64,000 nucleotides of DNA. Origin: Siphonodentalium dalli (lineage: Eukaryota > Mollusca > Scaphopoda > Gadilida > Siphonodentaliidae). The notes below the pieces were generated by a model, which searched no databases, was not told where the DNA came from, and saw only the letters and a program-made list of their open reading frames with translations. The stretch lies in the NCBI GenBank assembly GCA_032622095.1, contig CP136069.1, forward strand, positions 185,307,122-185,371,121, given 5' to 3'. Numbering within the stretch: the first letter of the stretch is position 1; every line of letters begins with the position of its first letter. The position numbers and the translations under genes are program-made. Below are positions 16,613 to 63,317 of the stretch, piece by piece.

Positions 16613-16857
16613 CACGAAGTTTTTGCTATTGCATTTCGGCAATTGTATTAAATTATTTATCGCCTCGTATTATAATTTATAAATTGATTTATTTATTTGC
16701 GCGCTGTTATGCTAAGATTCGAGAAGTTTTCACAAAGTGAAAATTCAATGGCAGTAATTCGAAGTCAGACATCCCACCGCGAATGACGAGGCTCTATATC
16801 CTGATCGATTCTTCCAGTTGTCAGTCAGACCGCTATTATACTTTCGGATGTTTTAAT

Positions 16858-17289: not shown

Positions 17290-17399
17290 AATGTCCTTGC
17301 ACCAGTGAACAAATTCTCATTTATATCTAAATGGTCATCTATCGATCAGAATAGCATATTGAGATGTGTCTCAACTCAGATCAAGGTAGAACGGTGATT

Positions 17400-17900
17400 T
17401 TCGCCCATGTCGGGGTTAGAACCCGTGCCAACCTCGTCTAGACTTATAGTTATTTGTCATTACTGGAGAGAACACAGTTGAAAGTGAAACGATTGGCTTT
17501 CCGTAGTTAGCTAAGTGCTACAAGCCGCCTCGAGAGTTTGAACATAAACTCTATTTTATGGATGATATCTTGCAATAAATATGTTAATGCACAGCTGACT
17601 GCTATTTCATAGAATTCGTGTACTTATGTGTGACAAAACTTCAGTGAAAGATTACCGGTCAATGGGGCACATCTACCTGTTCCAAATCCATATATCTCTA
17701 TGCGCCGTATTGACAGTATACGCAACGAACTTCACCGATTTACTCGTAGCCGTTCCCGTCGGACGGATATCGCAGACTGGCTGCTGTTAGATTAGCCGCA
17801 GGTGTGCTTATTTCCTCCACCACTAATACTGGCAATGTCGTGATATGGTCTTAGTTGTTGAAAGCAACATTAAACCACAATCAATCAATCAATCAATCCA
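17400..17900 (+). repeat. SINE-like element with (AATC)n tail
   Basis: Ends GTTGAAAGCAACATTAAACC followed by ACAATCAATCAATCAATC, a 3' end common in invertebrate retroelements. Near the start, GGGGTTAGAACCCGTGCC resembles a tRNA T-loop/B-box. The 5' boundary is unclear, and the tRNA origin is a guess. It lies exactly between the two full foldback-F elements. Confidence 0.5.
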
Positions 17901-17960
17901 CTACTGACGGATGATTTTGGGTATTTTCGCGATACCTCTGTGATACAAATTGAAAGCATT

Positions 17961-18420
17961 TGTGACCCGCCATATCAAATCCAGTCGTAAGTCGGGATTT
18001 TGTTTACCCTGTGCCAATGCATTCTCTTATATATGCGAGTCGACCATATGTCGCCTCGCATATATAAGAGAATGCATTGGACTAACAATTTTTTATCATT
18101 TTTTTTAAATAATTTTTTCTGACAATTTTTAGGACATACAATAAAAAACATCCATTACCCTGCAGGGAGCCCCACACATATATAGAAGCATATAGAACAG
18201 TGTAGTCTGCTCATGTTTGTCTGGGGCTCTGTATGGGTGAAATTATAAAATTGTTAAAGAATACAAGAAAAAAGTTTTAAAATTGTAAAAAATTGTTAGG
18301 CCAATGCATTCTCTTATATATGCGAGGCGACCTATGGTCGACTCGCATATATAAGAGAATGCATTGGCACAGGGTAAAAAAAATCCCGACTAACGACTGG
18401 ATTTGATATGGCGGGTCACA
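17961..18420 (-). mobile_element. Foldback MITE family F, copy 2 (core inverted)
   Basis: Same termini and subterminal palindromes as 16858-17289. The core is present in the opposite orientation: CATCCATTACCCTGCAGGGA comes first and CTCTGTATGGGTGAAATTAT last. The element therefore inserted in reverse orientation, or its centre flipped by recombination between the TIRs. Flanks are GCATT and TTTTT, with no clear target duplication. Confidence 0.88.
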
Positions 18421-19029
18421 TTTTTCATTTCCGTTTGCCTGGTAAGCCGAAAATTTGCTCAGGAAATTCTTAATTATTTCGTGACAAATCGTACCGCGGA
18501 TCTTAAATCAGATACCACGAACATTGTTGACAGCGATCGGCACACCTTCAAAATGACGACTCTAGTAAAACTTCGTGACATGTTCAGTGGACCATGCTAA
18601 CCACTGGACCACCACATCACTGACACACAACTTAGTCTGATAAGATATATTTTATCACCCGCGGCATCTAAAACACACATTTCACTTCTTTTCTAATGAC
18701 AATTCAACTGTAAGTTAAAGCATTTCTACTTTCCCTATTTATGTAATTATGGCCGTCTCGTTTGATCTGCCTACGAAAATGTAATTGTGAACTGATAGAT
18801 AATAAGATATCAAGTGAAAGCTTTTAACACGATACATGTACTAATTGATCACGATGTGCGACGCACCCAGTTCAAGGCCAGACGGAAATAATAAAGACGT
18901 GTTGTTGTTGTCGATCAAGAAATTAAGCACTTGTTTATTTAAAGTAAATTTTTATAAAATATACAACATAAGTATCTGGATACTATATAAAGTAAGTATG
19001 AATAAACTGTTTTCTTTTCTTTGCGTTTG
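18421..19029. other. Intergenic
   Basis: No supported gene. Short frames at 18403-18600 and 18845-19030 have no recognisable content. Confidence 0.45.
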
Positions 19030-26325: not shown

Positions 26326-26397
26326 TAATTGTCGAACGAGACACGAGATCACCCAGAAATGATGGGATCGACCGAATTGCTTTCAGTCCTGATTTTG
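26326..26397 (+). CDS. Mucin/EGF gene, exon 1: start codon and first half of signal peptide
   Basis: The exon opens after CTCCTTTCAG. It carries about 33 bases of 5' UTR and then ATGATG (first ATG at 26359) encoding MMGSTELLSVLIL, and ends at a near-perfect donor TTTTG|GTAAGT in phase 0. Joined in phase 0 to exon 2 (VGLLSSFADAG) it makes a textbook secretory signal peptide: short n-region, hydrophobic core LLSVLILVGLLSSF, and an A-D-A-type cleavage site. Exon joining is inferred from phase and sense, not from transcript data. An acceptor directly upstream suggests a 5' UTR intron. The first ATG is chosen because the frame is closed shortly before it by the exon boundary. Confidence 0.6.
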
Positions 26398-26399
26398 GT

Positions 26400-26984
26400 A
26401 AGTAAGCTCGTATGACGACGCTCCTGTTGCCTATTTCATTCACCCGTACGTTTATACAGAAATTTGCTTAAAGGTACTTAATCAGATTCGATGGTCCCCA
26501 TATCATCACATTCGAACAACATTCTTTTGAAATGCCGCTTCCGTTATCAGAATCGAGTAATTGTCCAAACATAATGCTGACCACAGTCAACTATAGTACA
26601 AAATTGTCCAAAATCTGTTATTTGTCAACATTCTGTTCAACGAAATTTTGCCAGTTTGTCAAACATCTGACACAAAAAAGGCACTTGATTTTAGAGTTAT
26701 CCATCTTCATCCGCAATTTGGTCTGATGAGTCTTCTCGTCGACTGTTTACTGGGCCACTTAAAATTAAAATAATAGATTTCAAACATCGATATCTGATCA
26801 TTCTGAGCTTTGATGGGTGGGTTCCTCGACTCGAATCAATTATTATTTTTACCCCCGAAGCCAAGGAAATAGTAATTTGCGAGCGTTAATTCGGATTGAG
26901 TATCTTTAAAGAAGTGTTGCCGGATTTAACACCAGAAATCTGCAATTTGTGCAAAGTCTATACCCGACGATAATGATATACTAT
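26400..26984. other. Intron 1, first part
   Basis: No exon or repeat recognised; intron 1 as inferred spans 26398-30379. Confidence 0.4.
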
Positions 26985-27500
26985 GAGCCCAATAATACGA
27001 GATTGAATATAATACTATGGAAATTAATATCATACTGTGGTATTTAATATAATAATACGATATTAAATATAAACTTATGAAATTAAATATAATATGATAT
27101 TTAATATAATGATATAAGATTGAATATAATATGCTATTTAATATAATGATATGATATATAATATAATGATATAAGATTGAATATAATATAAGATTGAATA
27201 TAATAATATAAGATTTAATATAATAACATGAGATTGAATATCATATGAGATTTAATATAATAATATAAGATTCAATATAATAATATAAGATTTAATATAA
27301 GAATATAAGATTCAATATAATGTATGAGACTGAATATAATGATATGAGATATCATGATATATTTTATATATGTGTAATGTATTAACATGATATTTAATAT
27401 AATAATATGAGATTTAATATAATACTATAATACAATTTAATATAATGATATGATATTTTATATAATTTTATGAGACTTAATATAATGATATTATGTTTGA
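26985..27500. repeat. AT-rich tandem array, about 18-21 bp unit
   Basis: Roughly 25 loosely conserved units of the form ATAATATAAGATTTAATATA, with variants GATTGAATATA and GATATTTAATATA. Nearly pure A+T; inside intron 1 of the inferred gene. Confidence 0.88.
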
Positions 27501-28324
27501 TATCATAACAGTCGATCAAACGTTTCAATGATCGCCTCTGTTAATGAGCGTCCGTGCTTTTTATTCCCAAAATTGTTAATTATAAAGAACGTCCTTAATT
27601 ATGATATTTTGTGCTCGTTTTCAATGTAAACTGGTGGGTTCCTTCGTGGGGGTATTTTGCGATACTAATTATAGTAATTCCAATTATATTTTAATGTACT
27701 TTTGTCTGTTAAGCAGAAACTTGACTCTGGAGATTTACCTATTTAGATCTCATATCGGACCATGTATGTATAATATTTTTTCAGGAGAATAAATGTCTTG
27801 GAAACTAGAACTATAGTCTGAACTTAGTGTCTCGGTCGGGCTAAGGATATCTCCGCAATTGGACATTATCAATAGTAGCATATTATATCGTGTTCTCCTG
27901 AATATCAACACATACTGATATTAGAATCCTATTACCGTTCACAATCTGCTTAGATTTTCCCTATGTAAGGCCCATAACCGACCGTAAATAGTAATCATGT
28001 AGAGCCGTTATGTGCTTATTTTATTTCCGTTATACATGTAGGTCCATTACAGGCTGAAAATAACAGCGTTATAAACCCATGCATCTTTGTATATGTTTTG
28101 AATAGCCCATATTAGAAAAAATTGTATTCGAAAAAGGACAACTCTGTTAAATTGATTACGACTATAACATCACACTTGCAGGTACAAGTGTCCATGATTG
28201 TAAATAACTGTGCCAAGTTTCATAACAGTTAATGAAGAAGCGAATGAAACAGGCTTGGTGCAATAAATTTATAAGTCAAAGGGGGGTAACTCTACTAATT
28301 TAAGACAGACCGACTTGATAATTG
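27501..28324. other. Intron 1, middle part
   Basis: No feature that I can support. Confidence 0.4.
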
Positions 28325-28705
28325 TGGAAGTAGCAGCCCAGTGGTTAGAGTGTTGGACCTACAATGGTGTTAATGCACCGGCGTGAGTTAGCGAGTCGTC
28401 GGTGGACTATCGTCTCCACAACAGTGGCTTGGCCGGATTGAGCGGTGTGTGCTTATAGCCACACCCTGTTTCAAATCTCGCGCCTGGTTGTGACCCTTGG
28501 GCAAGGTCACTTGTACTGTGCTCGTGTCGTCGTACCTCGACGAGAAATAGGTAACTGGTTGTCGGGTATCCGTAAGCCGCTCTAGTGAAGCGCCTGTAAA
28601 ATGGCAGCGGACACAAGACTCGGCATTAATCATAAAAAACAGCTGAGGTAATAACGTAAGCGCTTAGAGCTACAACCGGGATTAAGCGCTATATAAATGA
28701 TATAT
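28325..28705 (+). repeat. tRNA-derived SINE
   Basis: A GC-rich island that begins with an A-box-like CAGCCCAGTGGTTAGAGTGT. It has a B-box-like TTTCAAATCTCGCGCC about 130 bases later and then the SINE-core-like CCCTTGGGCAAGGTCACTTG. It ends TTAAGCGCTATATAAATG. The box spacing is longer than in a tRNA, so the head contains an insertion. The terminal GCGC-TA motif resembles the LINE 3' end at 32.3 kb, consistent with the usual SINE/LINE tail sharing. Frames on the minus strand are not genes. Confidence 0.65.
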
Positions 28706-29939
28706 ATAGGTTATAACTCGCTTGGGTATCTGTACAAGCAATATAGACCAATGCCGCGAATCTGTTCACACCCCAGGGCAAACACAATTGAGCCATATTC
28801 TATACGACGATTATCTATCAATTATCATTCAAACAAAAGTTAATTGAATGGTATGTGGTGTTACATTTTCCTGTTGAACAATTAGTCAAATACTCGTTGA
28901 CAATCGGATCACTTGCGTCATCATTATTCATCAGCGTTGATAAACCATTTTGTCTCCGAATTTGAAAACGTTTTTATACTGATGACGTGTTTTTCTGGAT
29001 AAAACAGATTCTTTCTTGTGATAATAAACTGTTTCGGCTGTTAAGGTTATGTTTCGTCTTCTTGTCATATTGCGATTATCGTTCAGAATACAGGAGGCAA
29101 TCGGACTCCGACGTGAAACTATTCCACTTGCATGAAGTATGTGTGATGAAATATCACCGGCATTCATGACAACAGATTTATCCAAACCTGCATATATTGC
29201 CTGCATTTTCGGCGTACATGCATGTATATGTAAAAAGTTTGTGGAATGTTCTCAACGGTATCATTCCAAAGCTCGTGATTATTGTGGATTATACATTCCA
29301 TATAGGTTTGGATTTCGTTCAGTTTACTTCCAATCACCCTGCCCCTCCCGACAAACCAAAAGGTATTCAATCGAAACAGTTGGGCCCCCACCGATCCAGC
29401 CCACCACCTCTATGACCGCTACTGTCCGTGTTTTAACTTCCCGAGTGACTGGTGCTATCATTATGGCGTATTGTTATAAAATTTCACACCTTCCGCTCCG
29501 ATCTCCTTTCAGCTTATTATTAATGTCAATTTATGTGTGATATTTAGCTCAATTCTATATTTTGGCCGCGTCGAAATACAGATTCATACAATAAATATTG
29601 TTCATGAATTGGAGCAATTTGATTGGCCGAGGGTGTGAACCGGTTTATAAACATTATTATAATCGCAAATTCCATGGTGATAAATATTGTATTTTTTTGC
29701 GAATATTAAAATACATGGATGACTGGACGCAGTTCAACCAGAGCGCTTTAAGATGACAACGAGGTATCCATCTTCTCCACAACACAATAACAGCCATCAC
29801 AGCTCCTCGCATCTGGAAATTCAAAAACAATTGATGTCGCTGAACTGTAATCATGGTAAACTGCACATATGTTTGTCTCACATGTAGGTACTGCTGAAAT
29901 TAAAATGGAACTCATTCATGAGTCATAAATTAAGTGTTT
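28706..29939. other. Intron 1, last part
   Basis: Includes a 133-codon plus-strand frame (29139-29540) without recognisable domains or codon pattern. I regard it as chance. No other feature. Confidence 0.4.
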
Positions 29940-30190
29940 GGCTGAAAATAGTATAATTAACCCTTCCAGTACTAAATGGATTCTCCCAGTCAGTTAAAAA
30001 GTGTACATCAGAATGGTCTATTATTGATTTTCAGGGATCTACATGTAATGTAAGCAGACAACTGATATAAGGAAGGAGTCCTATTCATTTAGGGAAATGT
30101 TTAGATAATAAGTCCAAAAAACGACATATTGTCCTTTGTTTGACTTACATTTCCTATGGCATAACTACCCGTCAATGATGCTTTAGAATA
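29940..30190 (-). repeat. Dispersed repeat R2, copy 3 (inverted)
   Basis: Reverse complement of the 23690-23920 type. On the minus strand it reads GCATCATTGACGGGTAGTTA, CATAGGAAATGTAAG and ACTGACTGGGAGAATCCATT in the same order. Confidence 0.7.
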
Positions 30191-30379
30191 GAAATGGTTA
30201 ACTTAGAGGCAGACGGCATAACATGGGCACGGTCTACCCACTCCCACTTTCTATGTTAACGGATGTTGTGTGATACCCTCCACAATTGTAAACCACTGCG
30301 ATGTTTGTTGATGCGATGAAACCCCATACCATCATGTCCCATTGAATGCCCATATTGTACAACACTTCATTATTTTCAG

Positions 30380-30413
30380 GTTGGATTGCTGTCATCATTC
30401 GCTGATGCTGGAA
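30380..30413 (+). CDS. Mucin/EGF gene, exon 2: second half of signal peptide
   Basis: A 34-base micro-exon between an excellent acceptor (CATTATTTTCAG) and an excellent donor (CTGGAA|GTAAGT). It begins in phase 0 and ends in phase 1 and encodes VGLLSSFADAG plus one base. Alone it would be unremarkable. Its phase, hydrophobicity and A-D-A-G end fit directly onto exon 1. The phase-1 end fits every downstream module exon of the gene. Confidence 0.6.
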
Positions 30414-30767
30414 GTAAGTTATATTGTGGGATTATATTCGTTTCCTCTTGTAACCGTAATGTTAGGTAATGCCATGAATCTCTGCTATGGCTATATCATA
30501 TTACGCTATTTCAAAAGAGGTAACATTTTTAAAGGTCTGACTAGGATCTTTATACGATAACATCACTCGTGTAATATATTTATCAGTCAATAGCTGTTCT
30601 TTATTAAATCAGGTGAATATTCCAGTTGGAGATTGCACGATTTAGCTGACGTCTGTTATCTGATGTCTCTTTGTGTCGACTCTAATCATATTTTCCCAAA
30701 GTCGTCGTGAAATTAGCTCAAATGTCGTATATCGTGTAATATCGAGCTGGGTCTTCATCTATACTGA

Positions 30768-30923
30768 TACAAACCAGAGCCATATACCCTAACGGGTAGC
30801 TCCGATATTCTGACCGACAAGCCAGAGCCATATACCCATATGGGCAGCTTTCATATTCTGACCGACAAGCCAGAGCCATGTACCCAACTATTGCACTGGA
30901 TATTATTGACATGTTACGTGCAT
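30768..30923 (+). pseudogene. Relic of the mucin repeat exon
   Basis: In one frame, three copies of a repeat of about 16-17 codons read LTGSSDILTDKPEPYT, HMGSFHILTDKPEPCT and so on. They match the TPTGSFHIPTDKP repeats of exon 3 in residues and in nucleotides (AGCTTTCATATTC-GAC-GACAAGCCA). The frame is closed by TGA just before and by a stop at 30921. No convincing acceptor precedes it. It is best read as a decayed partial duplicate of exon 3 about 1.8 kb upstream of it, though use as an alternative exon is not excluded. Confidence 0.6.
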
Positions 30924-31093
30924 TATTATTGAAGGAACATGTATTAACCCTTTACCCAACAAACCGGCCAAAACCGGCCAAATAAAGCTTCAACAGCCTA
31001 AAATATCTTCGGTCTGTCTCAATAGAACCATACAAATATGGATATCATTGGAACCGGCTCCTTGACCACATTGTGATAGTTACAGTTATGCCC

Positions 31094-31310
31094 TGTGCCA
31101 ATGCATTCTCTTATATATGCGAGTCGACCATATGTCGCCTCGCATATATATAAGAGAATGCATTGGCCTAAAACAAAATCTGTTTTTAATACTTTTTACC
31201 ATTTATTTTACCATTCTTTAACAATTTTATAATTTTTAATGTGTTAAGCCAATGCATTCTCTTATATATGCGAGGCGACCTATGGTTGAATGCATTGGCA
31301 CAGGGCCCTT
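31094..31310. mobile_element. Foldback family F, reduced copy
   Basis: Contains the 69-bp palindrome GCCAATGCATTCTCTTATAT-ATGCGAGTCGACCATATGTC and mirror. A shortened core (TTCTTTAACAATTTTATAAT) follows, and then a second palindrome that lost part of its right arm. The outer TGTGACCCGCC termini are missing. It is flanked by TGCC-CTGT and ACAGGGC words, suggesting shorter alternative ends. Confidence 0.75.
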
Positions 31311-31927
31311 CTGTTGGGTAAAGGGTTAACTGATAAATATATTACCTGTGTTATGATTTATGTTATAAGTCTCCCAATCAGAACATAAACAATTCCCGTG
31401 TTTTTAACTTATTGAATATCTCTCCGGGCGTAATGAGCGAGATTATTCATGATCTACCATGAAGTACAACTGCCTGGTGACGAATTGTCATAGTGTATGT
31501 TTGCTGTTGAATTTATAGGTTGAGTTATTTAATATAATTTAAAGGCCACCAAGTTAGATAACAAAACTAGTTACGTTCCACACATCCTTAATTCGACAGC
31601 TAATCAGTTGTATGAATGACCTTAATCTTATATTTAAGACAAAAGTTGAACACTTGGATTTGAAGTTTTGTGAGTTATTCGGTATACGTATACATAATGA
31701 AATGTCCGTTTTATTGTAATCCCCATTTAATATCATCTCGTTATATCTGATATGTTATACAAACGAGATACATGTGCAGAAGACGACAACGTTCTTATCT
31801 GATAAAGTAAATCCGTCATACATATCAGAAATAGTTGTGGTCAATGCTCGTGCGGTCGGAGCTCGGACTCGCGCTATATCCTGCTGTCAGAACATTAAAA
31901 CCACCAATAAGCCTTATAACAACTATT
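31311..31927. other. Intron 2, no feature
   Basis: No exon or repeat recognised. Confidence 0.4.
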
Positions 31928-32124
31928 GACACCGATCGTTCCAGGGGGTCGCTACATCTGTTTGGAACAGGCTGCCGCTAATCATTCGACGTTGTGACAC
32001 TTTGTCAGCGTTCAAGCAAGAACTAAAAACGCACCTTTTCCGTCTGTGCTTCAACTTGCAACAGACAATAACAAACAGTAGATTATGCATCCACTTCTTA
32101 TATAGCTTCAAATCAGATAAATAA
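31928..32124 (+). pseudogene. CR1/L2-like LINE ORF2 C-terminus (5'-truncated relic)
   Basis: The frame from just after a stop at 31927 to TAA at 32122 encodes GVATSVWNRLPLIIRRCDTL then SAFKQELKTHLFRLCFN. The pattern WNxLPxxIRxxxxLxxFKxxLKTHLF is a well-known C-terminal signature of CR1/L2/Rex-type LINE ORF2 proteins. RT and endonuclease are absent. It sits in intron 2 of the inferred gene on the same strand. Confidence 0.8.
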
Positions 32125-32340
32125 GTGCAATGACTTTTATTTGAGTTTTAATTATTTTTTACCGCTGTGTATAGTTTTAACGACTCACTTTTTAAATCTC
32201 CTACTCCGTATTTTAAATTCTTAGTTGTTGACCAATTGTTTTTTATTGTGAGCTTTTGTGTACCTTTTTATGTAAAGCGCATTGATACTAATTGTTGTCT
32301 AATGCGCTTTTAAATGCATATATAATAATAATAAAATAAA
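32125..32340 (+). repeat. 3' UTR and tail of the LINE relic
   Basis: Noncoding AT-rich stretch ending ATGTAAAGCGCATTGATACT-AATTG, AATGCGCTTTTAAATGCATA and a TAATAATAATAAAATAAAA tail. The GTAAAGCGC-ATTGA and GCGCTTT motifs are typical of CR1/L2-type 3' ends, confirming the upstream call. Confidence 0.65.
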
Positions 32341-32584
32341 ACTCTGGAAACAAATATCAACGGAATATCTGCACACACAATTATAGGATCTTACAAATTC
32401 GCACTCATTAGCAAGTGGCTTCACCATTCTAGATGCAAGTTCTACTAAATGTGGAGAATTGAGATTATTCTGACGAAACTCATGTGCTATAATTGGAGAG
32501 GACTTCAATCATCTTTGAATCTCGCAACATTTCCGGAAAGATATACATCTGTGAAGCATTGCGTAACACGGAACTAAACTACAG

Positions 32585-33598
32585 CTGCATGTATCGTTGT
32601 AGAATGGGACTGGTATGAGGGCGAACTTCGAGAGCTGCGTGCGTTAATCACAGGAATAACACCGCCTGCTATGAACTTCTCCAGTATGAACGCCAGCCAG
32701 TTTCCACCATCATTCCACCCATCGACGACAGCGCCGACAATTATGGACACGACATCTGTTAAACCCACGACATCCCAGCCAACGCCCTCAGATACAACGG
32801 AAATACGTCAGACAACGAAGAAGTCCACTGACGAGCCAGAGAAATATAGCCCGACAAACAGCTTTCACGTTCCGACGCCAGAGACACATAACCCATCCAA
32901 CAGCTTCCATATTACGACTGACAAGCCAGGGACGCATACCCCAACCGGCAGCTTCCATACTCCGACTGACAAGCCAAATACGCATAACCCAACCGGCAGC
33001 TTTCATATTCCGACTGACAAGCCAAAGACAAATACCACAACAACATCTACCAGCACAACAACTACAACGACCATGACGACGACCACAACACATGAAACAA
33101 CCGGCAGCTTCCATATTCCGACCAACAAGCCAAAGACAAATACCACAACAACATCTACCAGCACAACAACTACAACGACCATGACGACGACCACAACACA
33201 TGAAACAACCGGCAGCTTCCATATTCCGATCAACAAGCCAAAGACAAATACCACAACAACATCTACCAGCACAACAACTACAACGACCATGACGACGACC
33301 GCAACAACCGCTACCAACACAACATCAACGACCATGACGACGACCACAACAACTGAAACAACGACATATTCTCTAAGCACAACATCAGAGCTTGAGCCCG
33401 AAGCCGTAACATCATCCATACCAGACGATAGCCCCACGACTACAGAGAGAAGCAGAATGCCAACCGTCAGTGACGTCAATCGTCACTCCAGTGTGACTCC
33501 GTCCACATTCTGGTCTCATTCAACAAGCCAATTGATTACTGGATTATCAACCACAGAAATGCCTAAATGGACAACAGAAGTCCCCTTCAACCAGACAA
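32585..33598 (+). CDS. Mucin/EGF gene, exon 3: Thr/Ser/Pro-rich mucin-like domain
   Basis: One long exon, 338 codons from the acceptor at 32584 (AACTACAG) or 332 from a second acceptor at 32602 (CGTTGTAG). Both give phase 1. After an acidic start (WDWYEGELRELRALITG) it is almost entirely Thr, Ser and Pro. Repeats of the type TPTGSFHxPTDKP come first, then three nearly identical 36-residue repeats 108 bases apart (anchors at 33021, 33129 and 33237) with runs such as STSTTTTTTMTTTTT. Such composition implies dense O-glycosylation and an extended extracellular stalk or mucus component. The frame continues to a stop at 33655, but a phase-1 donor ACAA|GTAATT at 33598/33599 fits the downstream EGF exons. 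If that donor is skipped, the protein would end after about 20 more residues as a short secreted mucin. Minus-strand frames here are shadows of the repeats. Confidence 0.72.
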
Positions 33599-33854
33599 GT
33601 AATTCCATATACAGTCTAAGAACGTTGGTTTTGCTTAAAGAAATAAGACATAGCTAGAACTCAAATAATAATAAAAATTAAAATAACAGTTTTGTATGGC
33701 GTAAAATCCACCGAAGTTCTCTAAAACGCTTGACATGTTAAACACAAAATTCAATTGTAAATCAACAAAAAGTAGAACCATACTTGAGACGTAAAAAAAA
33801 TACAGAATAAAATCACAAATCGAAAAAATTATTAAAAAGTTACTGATATATTGG
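33599..33854. other. Start of intron 3 or alternative 3' end
   Basis: The mucin frame can read through to TAG at 33655-33657. An AATAATAATAAAAATT stretch at about 33665 could supply weak polyadenylation signals for a short isoform. No other feature. Confidence 0.35.
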
Positions 33855-34015
33855 GGGATGATAACATGATAAACAAAATAACAGCGAAAAGGGGGATAAA
33901 ATGGCGAACGGTAACATGCTAAAAATGACAGTGAGAAAGGGGGGGGTAAATGGCGAACGGGTAACATGCTAAAAATAACATGAAAAATGGGGTTAAAATG
34001 GCGGACGGTCGGGAA
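33855..34015 (+). repeat. Short tandem repeat, about 55-bp unit, 3 copies
   Basis: Units share AAATGGCGAACGG-TAACATGCTAAAAAT and a G-run (GGGGGATAAA, GGGGGGGGTAAA, GGGGTTAAA). Confidence 0.8.
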
Positions 34016-34394
34016 ACTCAAGATGATCCTACGCATGAACCAATAAATTCTTATCCATGCAGCAACGAAACACAATGGAGTGGGGGCTCTTCATTACTGT
34101 CTCAAGTTGTTGCGATCCACCAATGTATATATCGACCCTTGATCGAAACACGTTTATAGAAGTTCACGTTGCTCGACTTTGATAATTTCTATCAAAATCT
34201 ATTCGATAAATTTATTCATTTATTTCTTGAACCTCAATTATACTTAATAGGTATATGTCATTGAGCATGTTTTTATCGGATTTAGTTTCGGGACCATCAC
34301 TCACGTTGTCATTGTTATTGTTGAGGAAAGCTCAAACTCAAAACGCAGAATCTAAAGTTAACCCTATCGTCAGTTTCATGACGGGAGCTGCGCT

Positions 34395-35050
34395 GGTGCA
34401 ACATTAAATATCGTGTGTCAGTGCATTTACTTATATATGACACTGGGAACCTCGCACATATATAAGGATTAACTGTCATGTGGACTGTTTTTATGGAGAT
34501 GTAACGGTGAGGTAAGTGGACATAACTTGTGTAAAACCCGAAGGGTTTTACATACAAGTTATGACCACTTACCTCACCGTTACATCTCCATAAAAATAGT
34601 CCACATGACAGTTAATCCTTATATTTATATACATTTAGCGAAAAAGCCACTTTTGTAAATTTATTTAAATCGAAAAGTGTATCGTGACAAGATCAGCCCA
34701 AAATACCCAATAGCACCCTTGGCAAAAGTTAATAGGAACAATTTCTCTTCATATTGAAACCCGATGATGTATTAAGTCAGTCCTGCGCGAGTCCAAATGC
34801 GCCCAAAACATTACGCGTTCGTCTTTCCAAACCTAATGACGTATCGATGGTGTTATTAGCTTGGTGTCATGAGGCGTTGCGCATTCACCGAGAAATAACT
34901 GCAACTAGCCACTGGGCGCCGACCAATCAGAATGCTGGATTTAGTGATGACAACACTTAGTGTGTAAATATAAGAGAATGCACTGGCTTACCACGTCAAT
35001 GGTAATAAAGGCCAATGTGTTCTCTTATTTATGCGAGGTTCCCTATGTTT
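34395..35050. mobile_element. Composite foldback element related to family F
   Basis: The ends carry diverged forms of the family-F terminal word: CAGTGCATTTACTTATATAT on the left, and ATAAGAGAATGCACTGGC and GCCAATGTGTTCTCTTATTT on the right. The interior holds a near-perfect 168-bp palindrome (34458-34625). It is followed by about 330 bases of unique sequence with one 68-codon frame of no known type. The overall boundaries are approximate. Confidence 0.5.
34458..34625. repeat. Near-perfect 168-bp palindrome
   Basis: Arms of about 80 bases (ATATAAGGATTAACTGTCAT, GTGGACTGTTTTTATGGAGA, TGTAACGGTGAGGTAAGTGG and mirror) meet at AAAACCC-GAA-GGGTTTT, with only a few mismatches. Such a structure could extrude as a cruciform or give a long hairpin RNA if transcribed. 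Confidence 0.93.
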
Positions 35051-35204
35051 TCGCGCAAAATTTCAGGAAGCTCCAGTCATAAAATGGTTATTGCCTCTTT
35101 TAAGTGATAATATTTGTACCATCCCAAACCTCAAGTGAATCGTGAATGGTCTGATCAGTTATTATAGAAAACATAAATTAGCAGCAGCAGCAGTTGAAAA
35201 TGGT

Positions 35205-35425
35205 ACCCCGTTAATAATTGATAATGGTACCCGTTAATAATTGATAATGGTACTCCGTTAATAATTGATAATGGTACCCGTTAATAATTGATAATGGTAC
35301 CCCGTTAATAATTGATAATGGTACCCCGTTAATAATTGATAATGGTACCCGTTAATAATTGATAATGGCACCCCGTTAATAATTGATAATGGTACCCCGT
35401 TAATAATTGATAATGGTACCCCGTT
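35205..35425 (+). repeat. 24-bp minisatellite, about 9-10 copies
   Basis: Unit TTGATAATGGTACCCCGTTA-ATAA; some copies lack one C and one reads GGCACC. It ends about 35 bases before the EGF exon at 35459, so it lies close to the branch-point region of that intron. Confidence 0.92.
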
Positions 35426-35458
35426 TGAATGCAATGTCCTGATTTTAATTTTTTACAG

Positions 35459-35611
35459 ATCTTATACCCGGACAACGATGCAAACCACAAGACAAGAATC
35501 CGTGTGTACCGAACGCTGAATGTCGTATGGATGCGTCCCATTGCGACCGTGAGCATGCATACTGCTACTGTTTACCTGGATTCTACTCCACGGGTAGAGC
35601 GTGTCTACCTC
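35459..35611 (+). CDS. Mucin/EGF gene, exon 4: EGF-like module 1
   Basis: The exon is 153 bases (51 codons), phase 1 at both ends, between AATTTTTTACAG and C|GTACGT. In the frame starting CTT at 35461 it reads LIPGQRCKPQDKNPCVPNAE and continues to YCYCLPGFYSTGRACLP. Spacing is C-x7-C-x5-C-x6-C-x6-C-x-C-x10-C. The last three cysteines (CxC...GFY...C) are diagnostic for EGF-like folds. There are seven cysteines where six are expected; the extra one lies in the loop between the third and fourth canonical cysteines. Joined to exon 3 the boundary codon is AAT. A longer open frame in another register here is a shadow. Likely an extracellular interaction module. Confidence 0.8.
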
Positions 35612-35729
35612 GTACGTATGCTAAAAGACTTACCCTTATACATGTACCTCCCTGAGTTATAATTATCAATTAACAGACGGGCTGAATAATGTATATACTC
35701 CCGAAAATAAAGTTTAGTCAAAGTGTTTT

Positions 35730-36399
35730 GGTTATCCAAGGTTGGGTTAATAGTTGGGTCAAATTGCAGAAACTGGGTTCAATTGTTGGATTAGATTGTT
35801 GTGTTAGATTAGTTTAGTTAATAATGTCTGGTTTCCAGTTGCGCTCCTCATAAAGAATTGCTGGATGTGAGCTCTCTTTCTTATACTATTTTCTTATCTT
35901 TATTGTTATAAAACTCAAATAAATACACGGTGAAGGCATCTTTTATGTCGGAATTATATATTTGTATTATTGACTGTGTCTTTGTTACAGGTATTCTTTT
36001 CTATGTTGTTAATTTATTCCCGAAAAGGAAGTCATTATAATTATATTACATATCGTTTTGGATTTTCATATTACATACTACTACAAACGACTAAATGTAT
36101 TCGACCAAGGTCTGTCTTCAAGAACCATATCCCTAAAATGACTATTGGTAATAATTCGCAAGATATTACATGCAAAAATAAGTTTTGTTCTGATAGTACT
36201 ACAATGATTCAACTAACACTATTTTATAATGCCAATCAAATGAAACAGAACGAATATGTTAACATAAGTCGCCCTGTGCTCATTAGTGATATGAATTTAC
36301 AGTAATTCATGACATACTCATCCTAGCCCACCTCTCACCCATTGGCCATGACCAAGGAGTAAAATTTGCACCGAGTAATATATATATATATATATATAG

Positions 36400-36446
<47 letters not shown>

Positions 36447-37090
36447 CTCGGTGCAAATTTAATCCTTGGAAAATTATTGAATTATCTATGACTCTTGAAT
36501 AGTTACCTCTTGTATCTTCACTAGTAAATATTTCAATGTTATGTCAAGTAAAATTACTCTATTCTACTCTATTATATTATAATAAACACATATCACATCA
36601 TAATTATAATCATAATTTGACAGATACTTTATGTACCAAAGTCAAGATTCATAGATAGAACAGGACATTTAACTGACTGTTAAAACAGCTCTCACTTGTC
36701 ATACAATATTTGTCATTTGTATATATGCTCTCCTAAATTGAGGAGGTTAACAATAAACTACTTGTTTGTCGTGCCGCGAGGTAAAACTCAATCATATGGT
36801 TCGCGTTTTAGCATCGCGTCGCAACAAACTCGTGCAATAACGTTAACCAGTTCACACACTTGTGTCGTTTTATCTATATATTGGTATAAGTTGCCTCTAA
36901 CCCCATGTTTACTTACTTCAAACCCAATTTTTTTTTATTTAATCTACTGTTTGGTTACACATTTGGGTTACCATAACCCAATGTTTGGTTACCTTTTTCT
37001 GACCCAATTAGTTTAGTTAACAGCTCTAACCCAACATTTAGTCGGATTCCGTTAACTATACGTTGGGTTTGAGTCCGGCTAAACTTTAGT
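35730..37090 (+). repeat. Segmental duplicate D, copy 2 (with insertions)
   Basis: Counterpart of 22480-23130. The first half matches 35730-36100 and the second half 36880-37090. The roughly 780 bases between contain a long AT palindrome and a (TCTAT)-like simple tail at about 36550. Some or all of it was probably inserted after duplication. Confidence 0.75.
36362..36460. repeat. 99-bp perfect-armed palindrome with (TA)n core
   Basis: AAATTTGCACCGAGTAATAT and its exact reverse complement flank about 60 bases of alternating TA. It may be a tiny foldback element or a (TA)n tract captured between terminal repeats. Confidence 0.9.
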
Positions 37091-37473
37091 TATATTCAAC
37101 CCATTTTTTTGGCTGACAACATTGACAGGCATATATTCATGTAATTATAAATAAATACATGGCTATATATCGACACATTAGAGTTATAATATATGTATTG
37201 CACTCTTTTGAATGATCAGTTTTTGATCGCTTATTATACCGATGAAATGTCACGAATTATTGCACGATTTCTTCATACCTGATATTTGGATGGGTCTTAT
37301 CGGAACAATTACATACGAATGTCTGCCCAATGTTAGGAGGACCATTGACCATCATTAGGCGGACTGCGACATTATGCAGACGAAATCCGGTCTGCCTATT
37401 TTTTGCATACCAGTCACAACTAGTTATCTGGTGCTTTAATTGTTACCACCTCTCCTTGTTCAACCGATTTAGG

Positions 37474-37798
37474 TTGTCTTTTGTCTATAAAATGATGGGA
37501 TTGAAAAAAAATTGTTAAGGGGAATTTCAGCCCCGATAATTTTGAGACATGTATATTCTGTCGATATATAGTTTCATCATTGTGCGGTCGAAACATCCAC
37601 AGCGGTCTTGCAAAAATCTACTTTTCTGGTTTTGCATTTTTTATGTATAGGATGCAGCAATAAAGGAGATAACTGGCCAAATGTCATTAAAACATCGAGA
37701 AATCTGGTGTATACATCGAAATTGAGTAAAAATTATCGGGGCGGAAATGCCCTTAACAACAATTTTTTTAATCCCATCATTTTATAGACAAAAGACAA
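37474..37798. mobile_element. MITE with about 75-bp TIRs
   Basis: TTGTCTTTTGTCTATAAAAT and its reverse complement form the ends. The TIRs continue through GATGGGATT, an A/T run, TTGTTAAGGG and GCCCCGATAATTTT. The interior (about 175 bp) has no ORF. No certain target duplication: flanks are GG and GC. Confidence 0.8.
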
Positions 37799-38001
37799 GC
37801 TCATTTCGCAAAATCGGTTTGCCGCCTGAAGATACGGCCAATCTTAAAGACACGGTTGGCCTTGGCGGTGGGTATCCTGTGAAAATATCTCCACCCGTCA
37901 AAAACCGCCACAAACAGAAAGAACATCAAAATGTAGATAGACTGTGTCCGTATACAAATAAGAAATATCGCATAAACAGTATGTTATGGTCATATGTTTG
38001 A
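37799..38001 (+). other. Unrecognised open frame beside the MITE
   Basis: A frame reading out of the right TIR contains a basic, proline-containing stretch (GLPPEDTANLKDTVGLGGGY, then PVKISPPVKNRHKQKEHQNV) before a stop at 37999. The codons are varied, so it may be a remnant exon of some gene. It has no recognisable domain, and its only possible acceptor (ACAAAAG at 37793) is weak. Confidence 0.2.
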
Positions 38002-38009
38002 CCATTGTT

Positions 38010-39564
38010 ATGTAAACAAAAGCATAAAAAGTAACTTTTCTGGTGTTTGTTTATATTATGATGGTAAACATAAAGAGCGTTCTTTGTTGGTGAATACCTG
38101 ATATGGAACTAATAAAGAGCGTTTATGCCATTTGTGTGTGATTAGCCAGTAACATTGTGCTGTCTTCTGTAACACAACCAGGCTCTTGCTTAGGTAAAAT
38201 ATAGTAGGTCTGTATGATAACATGTTGTTTACGCGATGGTCATGGTATATATGAACGGAACTGTATGCGTTTTAATGTTTTTCTGTTTACGGTGTTTGGA
38301 ACAAATATGAATATTTTCGACAATTAAGGCCGCACGTGCCTTTAAACTATACGATAGTTGTTGCAATATAGGCATAAAATTAGATTTATTGGTGAATTGT
38401 AATGATCTTACAAATATACGATCATAGATAGCCAATGTATTTTATAGTTTGTCCGTTTGGTTGACAAGCGGCCAGTCCTAATTTTTAACTTCCACTCATT
38501 TCAGTTTTAATCGAAGTTAAGCCAATTAACTTCTACAATTTCGCCAAAATGACTTTGCTAATGACATATTTATAGCAATAAATGCATGAATCATGAAGAG
38601 GTGTTGTTAGATGTAACTAACAACATAGTTATGCCCCCCTGCCATCGTCAACAGATTGCCGTAAATTGTAAAATCTGAGACCGATTTCCAAAATTCACGG
38701 TAAATAAAAATGTGACAAAATCAGACACATATATTGTGTGAGAATTGGCACCAATGTTCGATATAATATAATAAATAATGAATGTTCCTCCTCGAGGACC
38801 ACTATTTTGTCATAGTCAACCCAAGCCATTCATTATCTATATAATATTTTCAATATTGATTCAGAAATTTGTCTCTTGCGTGTTCATCATTACGCGCGTT
38901 CCGCGTGTATACTAATGTAGAGATTCCTGTTTCGCCTGGGCGCATGGGTGTTTTATTTATAGAATGGGAATTATTGGGAGGATTAAAAGTCGAACTGCGA
39001 CCGGAGGCCGAGTCCGGTAAAAGGTGTAGTTGGCAATTTCAATTTCGTTTATTGTCGTTAACATTATGTCAATATTGTTGATTTTTGGTTTGTGAATAGC
39101 TATATCAATTACAAATAAAAGAAATGAAAAAGATAATTTGTAAGTCTTATATTTCACAATTTTTATAGACAGTTTTCGTTCTGCAGCCCACTGGGGGTTG
39201 TGGTCGGAGACGGCCGAGTCGACCGTCGATTCGTTAATTAGGTGCTGGTGGTTATTGTTATTTTAACGGAATTCTGAGTTGGTCATTCGCAAAACCAATA
39301 ATTTTTATATTCTATAATTACAACCATGGGAATGATATATGACCTTGAGCGCGTTACCATTTCTGACATTGGTTTTCTTGTTATACATGCCCGTTACTTC
39401 TTAAATTGAACATTTATTTTTGTGTTACTGTTAGCGCTGTTAGCTGTATATGGTCTGCCCGTACGGACATAATGGATGCTATTGTTAGTGATACATTACT
39501 GCTTGTTATCCTAACATATTTACACTTGACGTTTTAACAGACGGGAGTGTCGGGTGAACTACCA
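38010..39564. other. Intron 4, remaining part
   Basis: Intergenic-like. AAAGAGCGTT words repeat at 38075 and 38117. Around 39030-39180 a stretch with TTTCAATTTCGTTTATTGTC and ATCAATTACAAATAAAAG looks like the end of an inverted retroelement, but no coding remains. Confidence 0.4.
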
Positions 39565-39618
39565 TGCATACCATATGTCTCTGTAGGCGTGTCATGAATA
39601 CCATATATGTCTCTGTAG
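39565..39618 (+). promoter_or_regulatory. Duplicated 3' splice site
   Basis: The word ATACCATAT(AT)GTCTCTGTAG|GCGTG occurs twice, with AG at 39585-39586 and 39617-39618, 32 bases apart. Use of the second keeps the EGF frame. Use of the first puts a TGA three codons in (GC-GTG-TCA-TGA) and would truncate the protein. Confidence 0.6.
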
Positions 39619-39804
39619 GCGTGAAACTGGGGAGAACATGTAAGGACTATGGATACTCTGACGACAAGTGTGATGAAATCGCCAGTGATCACTGTGAAGA
39701 TCCGCATGCTGTGTGTAAACGGGTGATTGTAGGTCGGAGGACTGTGCGAAGATGTGTATGTGACGGACTTCATTATGTAGAAGTCAACGGGATATGCGTT
39801 AACA
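39619..39804 (+). CDS. Mucin/EGF gene, exon 5: EGF-like module 2
   Basis: The exon is 186 bases (62 codons), phase 1 at both ends, between GTCTCTGTAG and AACA|GTAAGT. The peptide starts VKLGRTCKDYGYSDDKCDEI, continues EDPHAVCKRVIVGRRTVRR and ends CVCDGLHYVEVNGICVN. Spacing is C-x9-C-x7-C-x6-C-x12-C-x-C-x11-C. As in module 1 there are seven cysteines; here the surplus one lies between the first two canonical cysteines. The opening x-x-x-[LP]-G-x-x-C matches the other two EGF exons (LIPGQRC, VKLGRTC, APLGGSC), which supports common ancestry and joint membership in one gene. The extra cysteines could pair with each other between modules. Confidence 0.8.
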
Positions 39805-40194
39805 GTAAGTTTTAAATGCTCCATCTGGGCATTATACGTGTACGAGATATTCAGAATTACATAATAATTATGGAACTTACATGTATAGCCTGCATGGAAA
39901 TATAATATAGTTCATGTCATGACATTGACTAAACCCCCGTGTTATAATATTCCACCAGTTAAAACCCCGGAAACCATTTTTTTCTGACAGGTAACTTTAT
40001 AACATCGAAAAGAAAACTGGCAAGAAATACATTTCTTGGTTACCATTTGTTCATTTATGATATATCTTAAAGTATATGTGAAGGTCCTGCTCTCTTATTT
40101 TCATGATGGTCATAATCGATGCAATTTACAGAAGCGACCTATTGGAAGGGTACATGATCAAGCCCTAAACTTATAAATTACATTTACACAATAA
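39805..40194. other. Intron 5, first part
   Basis: No feature recognised. Confidence 0.4.
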
Positions 40195-40384
40195 GTGCAC
40201 GGCTCAACCGAGGCCATCCTATTATTGTTATTAATTTCTATATTATTCACCATACTGGGGATGGCAGAAGACAGCCTTGTCAGACTATGCTATCTCCCAC
40301 AATATACGACATAATTTTCCATATTTTCATGATTATTATGTAATATATATGTGTATTGGAAATAAAATATCCTATCCTATCCTA
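40195..40384 (+). repeat. Retroelement 3' end with (TATCC)n tail
   Basis: ACGGCTCAACCGAGGCCATC begins a noncoding stretch that ends GTATTGGAAATAAAATATCC and three TATCC pentamers. This is the layout of a LINE 3' UTR in plus orientation. Confidence 0.5.
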
Positions 40385-40496
40385 GTATTCGATTTCGATA
40401 GTAAAAAAAAACATTATATTATAGCTATTTTGGATTAGATGGCTTGTGTTTTATTTCCATTTAAAAGATGTACTTGATTAAAAGTAGGATAAAATA

Positions 40497-41812
40497 TACC
40501 ATCACCAACTAACCCTCCACCGGATAGCCAATTCATGTTTAGCCTGACATATGATTCATCAACTCATCCTCTACCGGATAGCCAATTCATGTTTAGCCTG
40601 ACTTAGGAATCATCAACTCTCCCTCCACCGGATAGCCATTTCATGTTTAGCCTGACTTAGGAATAACCAACTCTCCCTCCACCGGATAGCCATTTCATGT
40701 TTAGCCTGACTTAGGAATAATCAACTCTCCCTCCACCGGATAGCCAATTCATGTTTAGCCTGACTTAGGAATAATCAACTCACCCTCCACCGGATAGCCA
40801 ATTCATGTTTAGCCTGACATACATGTAGGAATCATCAACTCATCCTCTACTGGATTGCCAATTCATGTTTAGACTGACATAGGAATAATCAACTCTCCCT
40901 CCACCGGATAGCCAATTCATGTTTAGCCTGACATAGGAATAATCAACTCTCCCTCCACCGGATAGCCAATTCATGTTTAGCCTGACATAGGAATAATCAA
41001 CTCACCCTCCACCGGATAGCCAATTCATGTTTAGCCTGACATAGGAATAATCAACTCTCCCTCCACCGGATAGCCAATTCATGTTTAGCCTGACATACAT
41101 GTAGGAATCATCAACTCATCCTCTACCGGATTGCTAATTCATGTTTAGCCTGACATAGCAATAATCAACTCTCCCTCCACCGGATAGCCAATTCATGTTT
41201 AGCCTGACATAGGAATAATCAACTCACCCTCCACCGGATAGCCAATTCATGTTTAGCCTGACTTAGGAATAATCAACGCTCCCTCCACCGGATAGCCAAT
41301 TCATGTTTAGCCTGACATACATGTAGGAATCATCAACTCATCCTCTACCGGATTGCCAATTCATGTTTAGCCTGACTTAGGAATCATCAACTCTCCCTCC
41401 ACCGGATTGCCAATTCATGTTTAGTCTGACATAGGAATCATCAACTCATCCTCTACCGGATTGCCAATTCATGTTTAGCCTGACTTAGGAATCATCAACT
41501 CATCCTCTACCGGATTGCCAATTCATGTTTAGCCTGACATAGGAATAATCAACTCACCCTCCACCGGATAGCCAATTCATGTTTAGCCTGACATAGGAAT
41601 AATCAACTCACCCTCCACCGGATAGCCAATTCATGTTTAGCCTGACATAGGAATAGTCAACTCTCCCTCAACCGGATAGCCAATTCATGTTTAGCCTGAC
41701 ATAGGAATAATCAACTCTCCCTCCACCGGATAGCCAATTCATGTTTAGCCTGACATAGGAATAATCAACTCACCCTCCACCGGATAGCCAATTCATGTTT
41801 AGCCTGATATAG
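40497..41812 (+). repeat. 54-bp minisatellite, about 24 copies
   Basis: Unit: CCACCGGATAGCCAATTCAT, GTTTAGCCTGACATAGGAAT, AATCAACTCTCCCT. Variants alternate between CTCTCCCTCCACC and CTCATCCTCTACC. Units with an extra ACATGTA (TGACATACATGTAGGAATC) recur at about 40820, 41095 and 41320, indicating higher-order amplification of multi-unit blocks. It lies in an intron of the inferred gene. Confidence 0.95.
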
Positions 41813-41977
41813 GACGTCGTTAAAGAAAATTATTGGTTTAACTGAGACATTTATAACCGGTGTAAACCATTTCTATACTAAATACTCATTGGCGAGTAGT
41901 TATCCCTTAGTACATTTCCAGTTAAGAAGTTATTATATACATGTTATCGCTGCAGTGAATTGATCTGGGCGAAGTAT

Positions 41978-42067
41978 CACGTCGAGTTGAAGAGGTCAGA
42001 TCGCTGGATCAAACGAGCCGGCGTCGAGTTTGATTCTTGCAGCGATCTGACCTCTTCAACGAACGTG
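41978..42067. repeat. 90-bp hairpin
   Basis: GAAGAGGTCAGATCGCT and AGCGATCTGACCTCTTC form the perfect stem. Outer CACGT/ACGTG and inner ATCAAAC/GTTTGAT extend it, with a GAGCCGGCGTCGA loop. Confidence 0.85.
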
Positions 42068-42435
42068 TATTATATGACTTGCTTTTTATTTAAAGAACAC
42101 AATTATGAAATGATACCACAAGTAGGTCACCAGTAACAAGAATAAAGAAGGAACTATTTTTCATAATAAAAGGTCCGGCTTTTTACGGACATGCGCAGTA
42201 TGCGAGATAGAGAAGGGTGGTATGTCATCGGTTTATTAAGGAACAGATAATAACTAATAAATATATTCCCGCGTTATTTTTTCGACTTTATAAGGTTCCC
42301 TGTCAAAACTTAATAATGTGTTATATAGCCATCATATGGCATATTATAAGCCAAATTTCTCGACGGTTAAACACAACCCTGTTTAGTTGGACCAACCCTG
42401 AGGTGACCAATACATGTATTTTCTTAACCGTTGAG
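42068..42435. other. Intron, no feature
   Basis: A 123-codon frame begins at 42217 but is uninformative (shadow or chance). Confidence 0.35.
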
Positions 42436-42642
42436 TTCAATTGTTATGCAATTATTCCATTGGACCGAGCTACATGCGAGAACATGTGTGTCAAAAATAT
42501 AGGATTAAGACCAATTGTGGACATGAAGCGTCTCGCCTTAAATTTGTGTGTGACAATCAAACCAAAAAAATGCAGATACACCCTATAAATACGATCGCTA
42601 ACCGATACATAGCGTGCATGTGCGAAAAGTGTCTTAAACTCA
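42436..42642 (+). CDS. Possible additional cysteine-rich exon of the mucin/EGF gene
   Basis: After AACCGTTGAG an open phase-1 frame reads QLLCNYSIGPSYMREHVCQK, includes TNCGHEASRLKFVCDN and reaches IACMCEKCLKL. It has a CxC pair and several cysteines with EGF-like spacing. Against it: the acceptor lacks a pyrimidine tract. The only nearby donor (CTCAG|GTTTAG) would leave phase 2, breaking the otherwise uniform phase-1 pattern. The opening motif of the other EGF exons is absent. It may be a decayed module. Confidence 0.22.
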
Positions 42643-43059
42643 GGTTTAGCATGCCGCCGTTACTGTGGACTTAACCCGGTATAAACTCCGACAAATATGT
42701 TCTTCTCAATTAGCACATTCACACATTATACAATACACAATATAAAAGTCAACAATGCGTATGTTAGCATGGTTATGCATTATATTTATAAGTTATTTAT
42801 TACATGTGTTTGTTATTATTTTCAACATTTAATTGCAAATCATAAACATACTCTGTAATTAAATGTTGTGGTTGCGTCTATAATCTTTTGTAATGTGATG
42901 GCTATGTCTGCATTTTCGGTATGTGTTAGATCTATAGATCCATTTAGTAATGTTTTTGACAGAGTTCACATTGCCCAATCGGCCTTCCTATCCTAATGGT
43001 AGGCATGAACTTCTCTTCTCTTTGTAAATCCGTTCATGGTGATGGATATTTTCTTCCAG
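42643..43059. other. Intron before EGF module 3
   Basis: AT-rich; no further feature. Confidence 0.4.
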
Positions 43060-43191
43060 GAGCTCCGCTAGGTGGTTCGTGTGCAACGACTACCGAATGT
43101 AAAACAAGGTTCGCAGAGTGTACAGTCAAGAACGGGAAGGCAACATGTGAATGCAAAGCTAACTATTATCGCAATGGCAACATGTGCACGA
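43060..43191 (+). CDS. Mucin/EGF gene, exon 6: EGF-like module 3
   Basis: The exon is 132 bases (44 codons), phase 1 at both ends, between GATATTTTCTTCCAG and CACGA|GTAAGT, both strong. The peptide reads APLGGSCATTTECKTRFAE, CTVKNGKATCECKANYYRN and GNMCTS. Spacing is C-x5-C-x6-C-x8-C-x-C-x10-C, a canonical six-cysteine EGF-like module lacking the extra cysteine of modules 1 and 2. Direct joining to exon 5 gives AGA at the boundary. The donor shows that more exons must follow, but I found no convincing terminal exon, transmembrane segment or polyadenylation site for this gene in the rest of the window. Confidence 0.83.
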
Positions 43192-44194: not shown

Positions 44195-44640
44195 TAACTT
44201 CAATCAATCAATCAAGTTTATTGTCTATGTAAATCAATAAATGACATTTAGACATCAATTAACATATATACATATAATTTACAGGTTACACGCGTGCGTT
44301 GTAATATGTTTCCCCACAGCAACAGGCAGCCTTGAGCATATTAAAGCCGCACACATTTCTTGGAAGTCCAAAAAATGCATGCAGCTCCAATTTACCCACG
44401 ACTACCAACCACTGTGGTAACACCCTCATTCCCACCACCCTGCCATACCACTTCGCCGGGCGCCGTGGTGGAGCACACCCCGCTCCACGCGAGACAAATG
44501 CACCGCGTGGAGCGGGGCCCGATCGGCCCAGGCATCCCTCCGCGGCACCGCAGAGCTGGTGCACTTTTACTGACCATCTCTTATTTTCCATATATCTGGC
44601 GAAATATTCTGATTTTAATTAAAATTAAAATAAACTTTAG
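44195..44640 (-). repeat. Minus-strand retroelement 3' portion with (TGAT)n tail
   Basis: On the minus strand it ends AATAAACTTGATTGATTGAT, a poly(A)-like signal with a TGAT tail. Upstream of that lies a strikingly GC-rich block (44420-44570) that includes CACGCGGTGCATTTGTCTCG and GCGGGGCCCGATCGGCCCAG. A 101-codon frame ends ETYYNARV before the tail. The coding identity is unknown; the GC step suggests it came from a differently composed source. Confidence 0.4.
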
Positions 44641-46935: not shown

Positions 46936-47639
46936 GTTAGGTTCGAGATTTCATCGAGTTTACAGTTTCTTCCAACTGTTGGATATGACAACCCCTAAGT
47001 TTATATTGTATTCATCTGGTGACCATTTGAGTTCACAAATTTGGCCGTAGTTATTTATATTATCTAAATATGTGGGTTTTTGTCTGAAAACAATTTACGC
47101 ACTAAATACTAAAAAGGGTTAGGACCGGTTGAAGGGACTGATTAAGGGATTAATTATAATATAATTAAGCCTTCCGCGCCCGGTGATTTCATGCGGACTG
47201 GCTGTTTTTGTTTTATTCACAGAGATAATTATGATTTTCGCTCCAGTCGTGCAAAACGAACACGAGACATGATGATGAGTATAACGTGTCATTCACCGCA
47301 TGTGCATTTGTCTTCATGGACAGATTAGTATCTCTCAACCTCGGTCAAAACATTCAACAGAGAAAAATGTGTACAATAGCACGTGGTGTAATTAAGCTTT
47401 GTGGATTTTGTCTGATTCCTTATGTCATTTTGCATTTTTGGTTTGTTAAAAGCGATATGAAAACGGATTATGCATGCCTAGTGTGTGTGTTTTCAGGATT
47501 GACTTGTTTCCATTCTTGAATTTTGGCGGGTCGTCCTAAATCTGGGTCAACATAATTTAGAGAGCGTTTCGTATTCACAGAAAACGATAGATGGTGCCAC
47601 CTGGCGTATGGTGATCAGTGCGATTTGAAACTTCTCTAA
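46936..47639. other. Unassigned, with one good acceptor site
   Basis: A strong acceptor (GTTTTTGTTTTATTCACAG) at 47222 is followed by short frames in all three registers. One reads DNYDFRSSRAKRTRDMMMSI and ends at a stop near 47327; another contains FVFMDRLVSLNL and LCGFC. I cannot decide whether any is an exon. Confidence 0.25.
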
Positions 47640-63307: not shown

Positions 63308-63317
63308 TATAATTCAG

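Follow-up and report, generated by a model that had tools for sequence, protein, structure and literature searches.

A probable secreted mucin-type gene with EB modules in the scaphopod Siphonodentalium dalli

Six open stretches on the forward strand of a 64,000-nucleotide piece of Siphonodentalium dalli DNA (the window) raise the question of whether they belong to one gene, and of what kind of protein such a gene would make. A first-pass annotation, made from the letters, had joined them into a gene for a secreted protein with a signal peptide, a Thr-rich block and three EGF-like modules. A signal peptide, a Thr-rich mucin and Cys-rich modules on one strand and in compatible phase are the best reading of the locus. 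We consider it likely that this is a real protein-coding animal gene for a secreted mucin-type glycoprotein, consisting of a split signal peptide, a mucin block and EB modules. The exons of the model are as follows.

26326-26397, + strand: exon 1, with a 33-nt 5' UTR and, from the ATG at 26359, the N-terminal half of the signal peptide, MMGSTELLSVLIL; donor in phase 0
30380-30413, + strand: exon 2, completing the signal peptide with VGLLSSFADAG; entered in phase 0 and left in phase 1
32585-33598, + strand: exon 3, the Thr/Ser/Pro-rich mucin block, Cys-free past its first residues
35459-35611, + strand: exon 4, Cys-rich module 1, 7 Cys, class 1-1
39619-39804, + strand: exon 5, Cys-rich module 2, 7 Cys, class 1-1
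43060-43191, + strand: exon 6, Cys-rich module 3, 6 Cys, class 1-1

Exon borders, reading frame and signal peptide

Each of the six exons lies at the coordinates first proposed, with AG before and GT after it, exon 1 being taken as the coding start. The joined frame is open over 519 codons with exon 3 starting at 32585, or 513 codons with a start at 32603, with one base of a further codon left over. The claim that a secreted gene can be assembled here stands as far as the six exons join in an open frame, and falls short at the 3' end, which the model lacks because no stop follows exon 6. The first junction is in phase 0, and all junctions from 30413 onward are in phase 1, as had been described. 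Exons 3 to 6 (4 of 4) have phase 1 at both borders and lengths divisible by three (1014 or 996 nt for exon 3, then 153, 186 and 132 nt) and are thus of class 1-1. Their proposed skippability without frameshift was borne out, since the frame stays open when exon 3, 4, 5 or 6 is removed singly (4 of 4).

Two metazoan patterns described long ago, and outlined in PMC8001218 and PMC1626468, are a phase 1 border at the signal peptide and extracellular modules of class 1-1. The all-phase-1, hence skippable, layout holds here as an instance of the general rule that these sources outline for such genes, and is no peculiarity of this one. Because phase-1 modules are general in animal extracellular proteins, the pattern noticed at first is the expected layout of a secreted modular protein. 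As in the class 1-1 exon-shuffled proteins outlined in PMC8001218, each exon here carries one Cys-rich module with both borders in phase 1, and the first phase-1 border lies at the signal-peptide cleavage site.

Splice sites were scored with generic metazoan weights and ranked against 2882 AGs and 3879 GTs. The acceptor of exon 1 at 26326 is in the top 1.2% of AGs and its donor at 26397 in the top 0.6% of GTs; for exon 2 the corresponding values are 1.1% and 0.9%. The donors of exon 3 (33598) and exon 4 (35611) are in the top 10.0% and 10.7% of the 3879 GTs, respectively.

The two halves of the signal peptide, said to join in phase 0, do so, and the product has a hydrophobic core and an A-x-A type cleavage motif. 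The prediction comes from a crude, home-made rule for these two features in place of a dedicated predictor. Between 24.0 and 32.6 kb, the only two-exon signal peptide entering the mucin exon in phase 1 was this same pair, counted twice by the search owing to two neighbouring ATGs. Any combination at all appeared in 1 of 300 first-order resamplings of this region, and the observed hydrophobicity was equalled in 0 of 300; these controls are supportive but not exact, their thresholds having been set with the observed values in view. Among 14 real segments of equal length (7 per strand), 12 gave nothing, one was the observed pair and one was a weaker case on the - strand.

The EB profile crosses the exon joins

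The three modules had been described as EGF-like. That there are three Cys-rich modules was confirmed, as was their shared opening, G-x-x-C in all three exons. Their assignment was revised, because Pfam gives EB (PF01683) and leaves the EGF families under their cut-offs. EGF_3 reaches at most 17.3 bits (cut-off 28.5), EGF 7.3 bits (21.5), cEGF 12.7 bits (26.6) and EGF_MSP1_1 8.2 bits (27), and a filing of the modules as EGF domains was rejected on these scores. Of two PROSITE patterns for EGF, C-x-C-x2-[GP]-[FYW]-x4-8-C occurs in one of the three modules (exon 4) and the other in none.

The protein-family search that had been suggested for the joined translation, run on 513 residues, returned EB at 29.5 bits, above the cut-off of 24.3. 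Over joined exons 4 to 6 the score is 37.2 bits (E 3e-9), the best stretch running from position 4 to position 52 of the 52-position profile. Taken singly, all three exons fall under the cut-off, exon 6 being the best at 22.1 bits and exons 4 and 5 giving no match. The end of exon 5 joined to exon 6 scores 33.8 bits with coverage of positions 4-52, while lengthening exon 6 into the intron before it, from 43003, gives no more than 24.6 bits. The end of exon 4 joined to exon 5 scores 23.7 bits, just under 24.3, and whole exon 4 with exon 5 scores 20.2 bits, also under it. Each Cys-rich exon contains one Cys cluster, yet the EB match crosses the joins; the EB unit spans them, and the limits of the exons do not line up with those of the Pfam profile. 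In this respect the gene may differ from class 1-1 exon-shuffled proteins, of which it is otherwise a plain case. A match that crosses joins supports splicing at these borders independently of the splice signals. When exon 5 is skipped and exon 4 is joined to exon 6, the score is 34.2 bits, and since this pairing scores as high as that of exons 5 and 6, the EB match does not fix the exon order. The gene resembles other EB module proteins (PF01683) in that exons 4 to 6 exceed the EB cut-off, and differs from them in having a mucin block ahead and full-profile matches only across joins.

The window was scanned for exons of class 1-1 that are 120-219 nt long and contain six or more Cys. Three places on the + strand qualified, represented by five candidates that overlap; the - strand had none, and no further Cys-rich module came to light. 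When 200 windows were resampled, one strand each, two such exons arose, both lacking the C-x-C..C tail; here too, thresholds chosen with the observed values in view make the control supportive and not exact. A profile of the three modules, run over the window's 2912 stop-to-stop ORFs of at least 15 aa, found no additional module, the next best having an E of 0.16. Profiles built from two modules did not recover the third in any of three trials (rank 18, unlisted and rank 12 of the 2912 ORFs), so only their common opening and the Pfam profile speak for a kinship of the modules.

A structure model of module 2 (pLDDT 79.0) has four short strands and one helix, and that of module 1 is poor (pLDDT 54.2). 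A fold search with the module 2 model gave 54 matches to E 10, none of them significant (best Pfs28, E 2.5). By sequence, solved structures gave three matches to E 1, likewise none significant (best heregulin-alpha, E 0.07). Among viral and prokaryote contigs there were 1 and 11 pattern matches, of which none was confirmed, and a search for RNA families found none at gathering scores.

The mucin exon, its repeats and the duplicated acceptor

The Thr-rich block had been given as 332-338 codons. The lengths agree (996 or 1014 nt), and the 5' edge is ambiguous because a third in-phase acceptor lies at 32654. This site, absent from the first-pass annotation, is in the top 3.7% of the 2882 AGs and scores above both 32603 (top 11.3%) and 32585 (top 37.9%), which are in the same phase; with it, the joined protein reads ...FADAGRITPPAMNFSS. 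The start of exon 3 is the weakest border of the model. The mucin core contains 114 T, 39 S and 32 P, that is 185 of 317 residues (58%), and no Cys. Three repetitive features bear on its history and on that of exon 5.

32877-33353, + strand: tandem arrays within the mucin block, repeating every 48, 108 and 45 bp
30769-30887, + strand: 2.5 of the 48-bp mucin units lying in intron 2, a probable relic or lost exon (TRF; repeat family D14)
39563-39623, + strand: tandem duplication of 32 bp, with a copy of the exon 5 acceptor at both 39587 and 39619

The repeat period is a multiple of 3 in all three rows in exon 3 and in 14 of the 39 remaining tandem-repeat rows, a comparison counted by hand over rows that overlap. 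Among the three 108-bp units, between 2 and 9 of the 108 positions differ. Differences between the 48-bp units have no third-position excess, and the repeats thus give no sign of selection on the protein. The opposite strand of the mucin region is also open, over 178 and 159 codons, as would be expected if the mucin block were a non-coding minisatellite and the model a chance assembly of open stretches. The controls on the split signal peptide and the Cys-rich exons, together with an EB match over the Pfam cut-off, make such an assembly highly improbable.

The mucin exon is tied to exons 2 and 4 only by position, order and phase. Joins 2/3 and 3/4 are the least supported, and the mucin frame, read on past its donor at 33598, stops at 33657, which would suit two neighbouring genes: one, with signal peptide and mucin block, would end near 33.6 kb, and the other would be an EB-module gene of its own with undetected first exons. 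However, the parts share a strand and their phases match at both joins, and the open frame of exon 4 begins at 35449, 10 nt upstream of the exon, leaving no start or signal peptide directly before it. We regard two genes as quite unlikely and prefer the single mucin and EB gene. A 24-bp tandem array at 35194-35425 ends 34 nt short of the start of exon 4.

The mucin units in intron 2 form an open frame of the KPEPYTHMGSFHILTD type on the same strand, 2 kb before the mucin exon. Splice scoring found no usable site pair around 30769-30887, which is probably a relic or a lost exon. Intron 2 also holds, at 31086-31306, one copy of an inverted-repeat element (GCCAATGCATTCTCTTATATATGCGAG...), another being at 16855-18423.

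The two acceptors of exon 5 score equally, but of the two only 39619 keeps the frame open; 39587 would yield an early stop. About 24 copies of a 54-bp repeat (40506-41814) fill 1.3 kb of intron 5. The duplication, in supplying an equal upstream acceptor with an early stop, could mark a loss of function, as could the relic in intron 2 and the lack of a third-position excess between units. Six exons that join with no stop or frameshift, and modules that each retain six or seven Cys, argue against a decayed or decaying gene, which we judge very unlikely. Within the reading of a secreted mucin gene, the near-identical 108-bp units, the cast-off unit in intron 2 and the duplicated acceptor able to make a stop-containing isoform suggest a further, tentative and rather unlikely possibility. 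The gene might belong to an undescribed lineage-specific mucin family with EB tails. Its mucin exon would then be a fast-changing coding minisatellite, and individuals would differ in protein length and isoforms.

CpG is not depleted (0.97), and there are 17 occurrences of TACATGTA where 2.1 would be expected; both would perhaps suit a lophotrochozoan such as a bivalve. A reverse transcriptase fragment at 62984-63313 on the - strand (RVT_1, 23.3 bits, under the cut-off of 29.6) is probably a LINE. The stretch 52469-53930 on the + strand, coding-like in several frames and with a weak GDSL-lipase match (15.0 bits, cut-off 32.9), is perhaps a transposon protein. Long inverted repeats, with arms 87-97% complementary, lie at 51831-51982/52149-52300, 12805-13455/15442-16078 and 34460-34530/34554-34624.

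The 3' end and the place of the gene among known proteins

Since no stop follows exon 6 and the frame ends one base into a codon, the gene must continue past 43191, where the donor is strong. The two best short endings among the phase-1 openings after 43191 are unproven candidates.

44320-44420, + strand: candidate last coding exon, 33-residue tail, stop, and AATAAA about 210 nt after the stop
47223-47272, + strand: rival candidate last coding exon, 16-residue tail, stop

The acceptor at 47223 is in the top 0.1% and is the strongest among the 13 acceptors listed. Neither tail has a family match, and the gene may end outside the window.

Epithelial membrane mucins with EGF-like domains have a transmembrane helix and a tail. 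Exons past 43191, possibly past the window, might add the same to the present protein, and the strong donor of exon 6, the missing stop and a last exon that is only a candidate would all fit a membrane-tethered mucin. Conversely, among 34 phase-1 openings downstream to 64 kb (12 or more residues, acceptor score of 2 or higher), read by eye, no clear transmembrane exon with good sites was seen, and two short stop-ended tails are available at 44320 and 47223. Tethering is, in our estimate, unlikely, and a secreted product is preferred. Vertebrate membrane mucins of the MUC3/12/13/17 type have long Ser/Thr-rich repeats followed by EGF-like Cys-rich domains. The gene described here has the same order of Ser/Thr-rich repeats and Cys-rich domains; it differs in that its joined protein has no SEA domain by Pfam, no clear transmembrane exon was seen by eye downstream to 64 kb and the modules are EB rather than EGF by Pfam.

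Bivalve mucin-like shell proteins include mucoperlin of Pinna nobilis and mucin-like proteins of the Perna viridis shell, as outlined in PMC6641155. They share with the present gene a mucin-like, secreted and molluscan character, and one Perna protein is Pro- and Thr-rich. They differ in that no EB tail is mentioned in the part of that paper describing them, and the likeness is one of description only. One Perna protein has a chitin-binding domain, unlike the gene here (PMC6641155). To judge by titles, PF01683 appears in work on Anisakis, the desert locust, termites and Anopheles. Among the matches listed, no title describes a mucin/EB/EGF-like architecture, which is no proof of absence; by title, EB with mucin and mollusc led only to an Anisakis transcriptome, and the EB module with EGF-like only to a Spodoptera paper.

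As for expression, glycosylation and role, we infer the following. The signal peptide split over two exons, as predicted by the crude rule, would direct the protein to the secretory pathway. The block of 315 to 338 residues has a composition suggesting dense O-glycosylation, which would give a stiff, hydrated brush. The three small Cys-rich modules would form EB modules across the joins, the 5/6 unit scoring above the Pfam cut-off and the 4/5 unit just below it. Judging from composition and domains, the EB tail may hold the brush in place, or cross-link it, within mucus or the extracellular matrix. Because exons 3 to 6 are all of class 1-1, repeat length and module number could change without breaking the frame.

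The locus illustrates that assembly by eye from raw sequence can be correct in most borders, and that a domain match, here the EB profile crossing the joins, can be used as evidence for a splice join. For the animal itself, the biology looks routine: the finding adds one plausible secreted mucin gene, probably an ordinary addition to the familiar secreted modular proteins, with a textbook exon layout.
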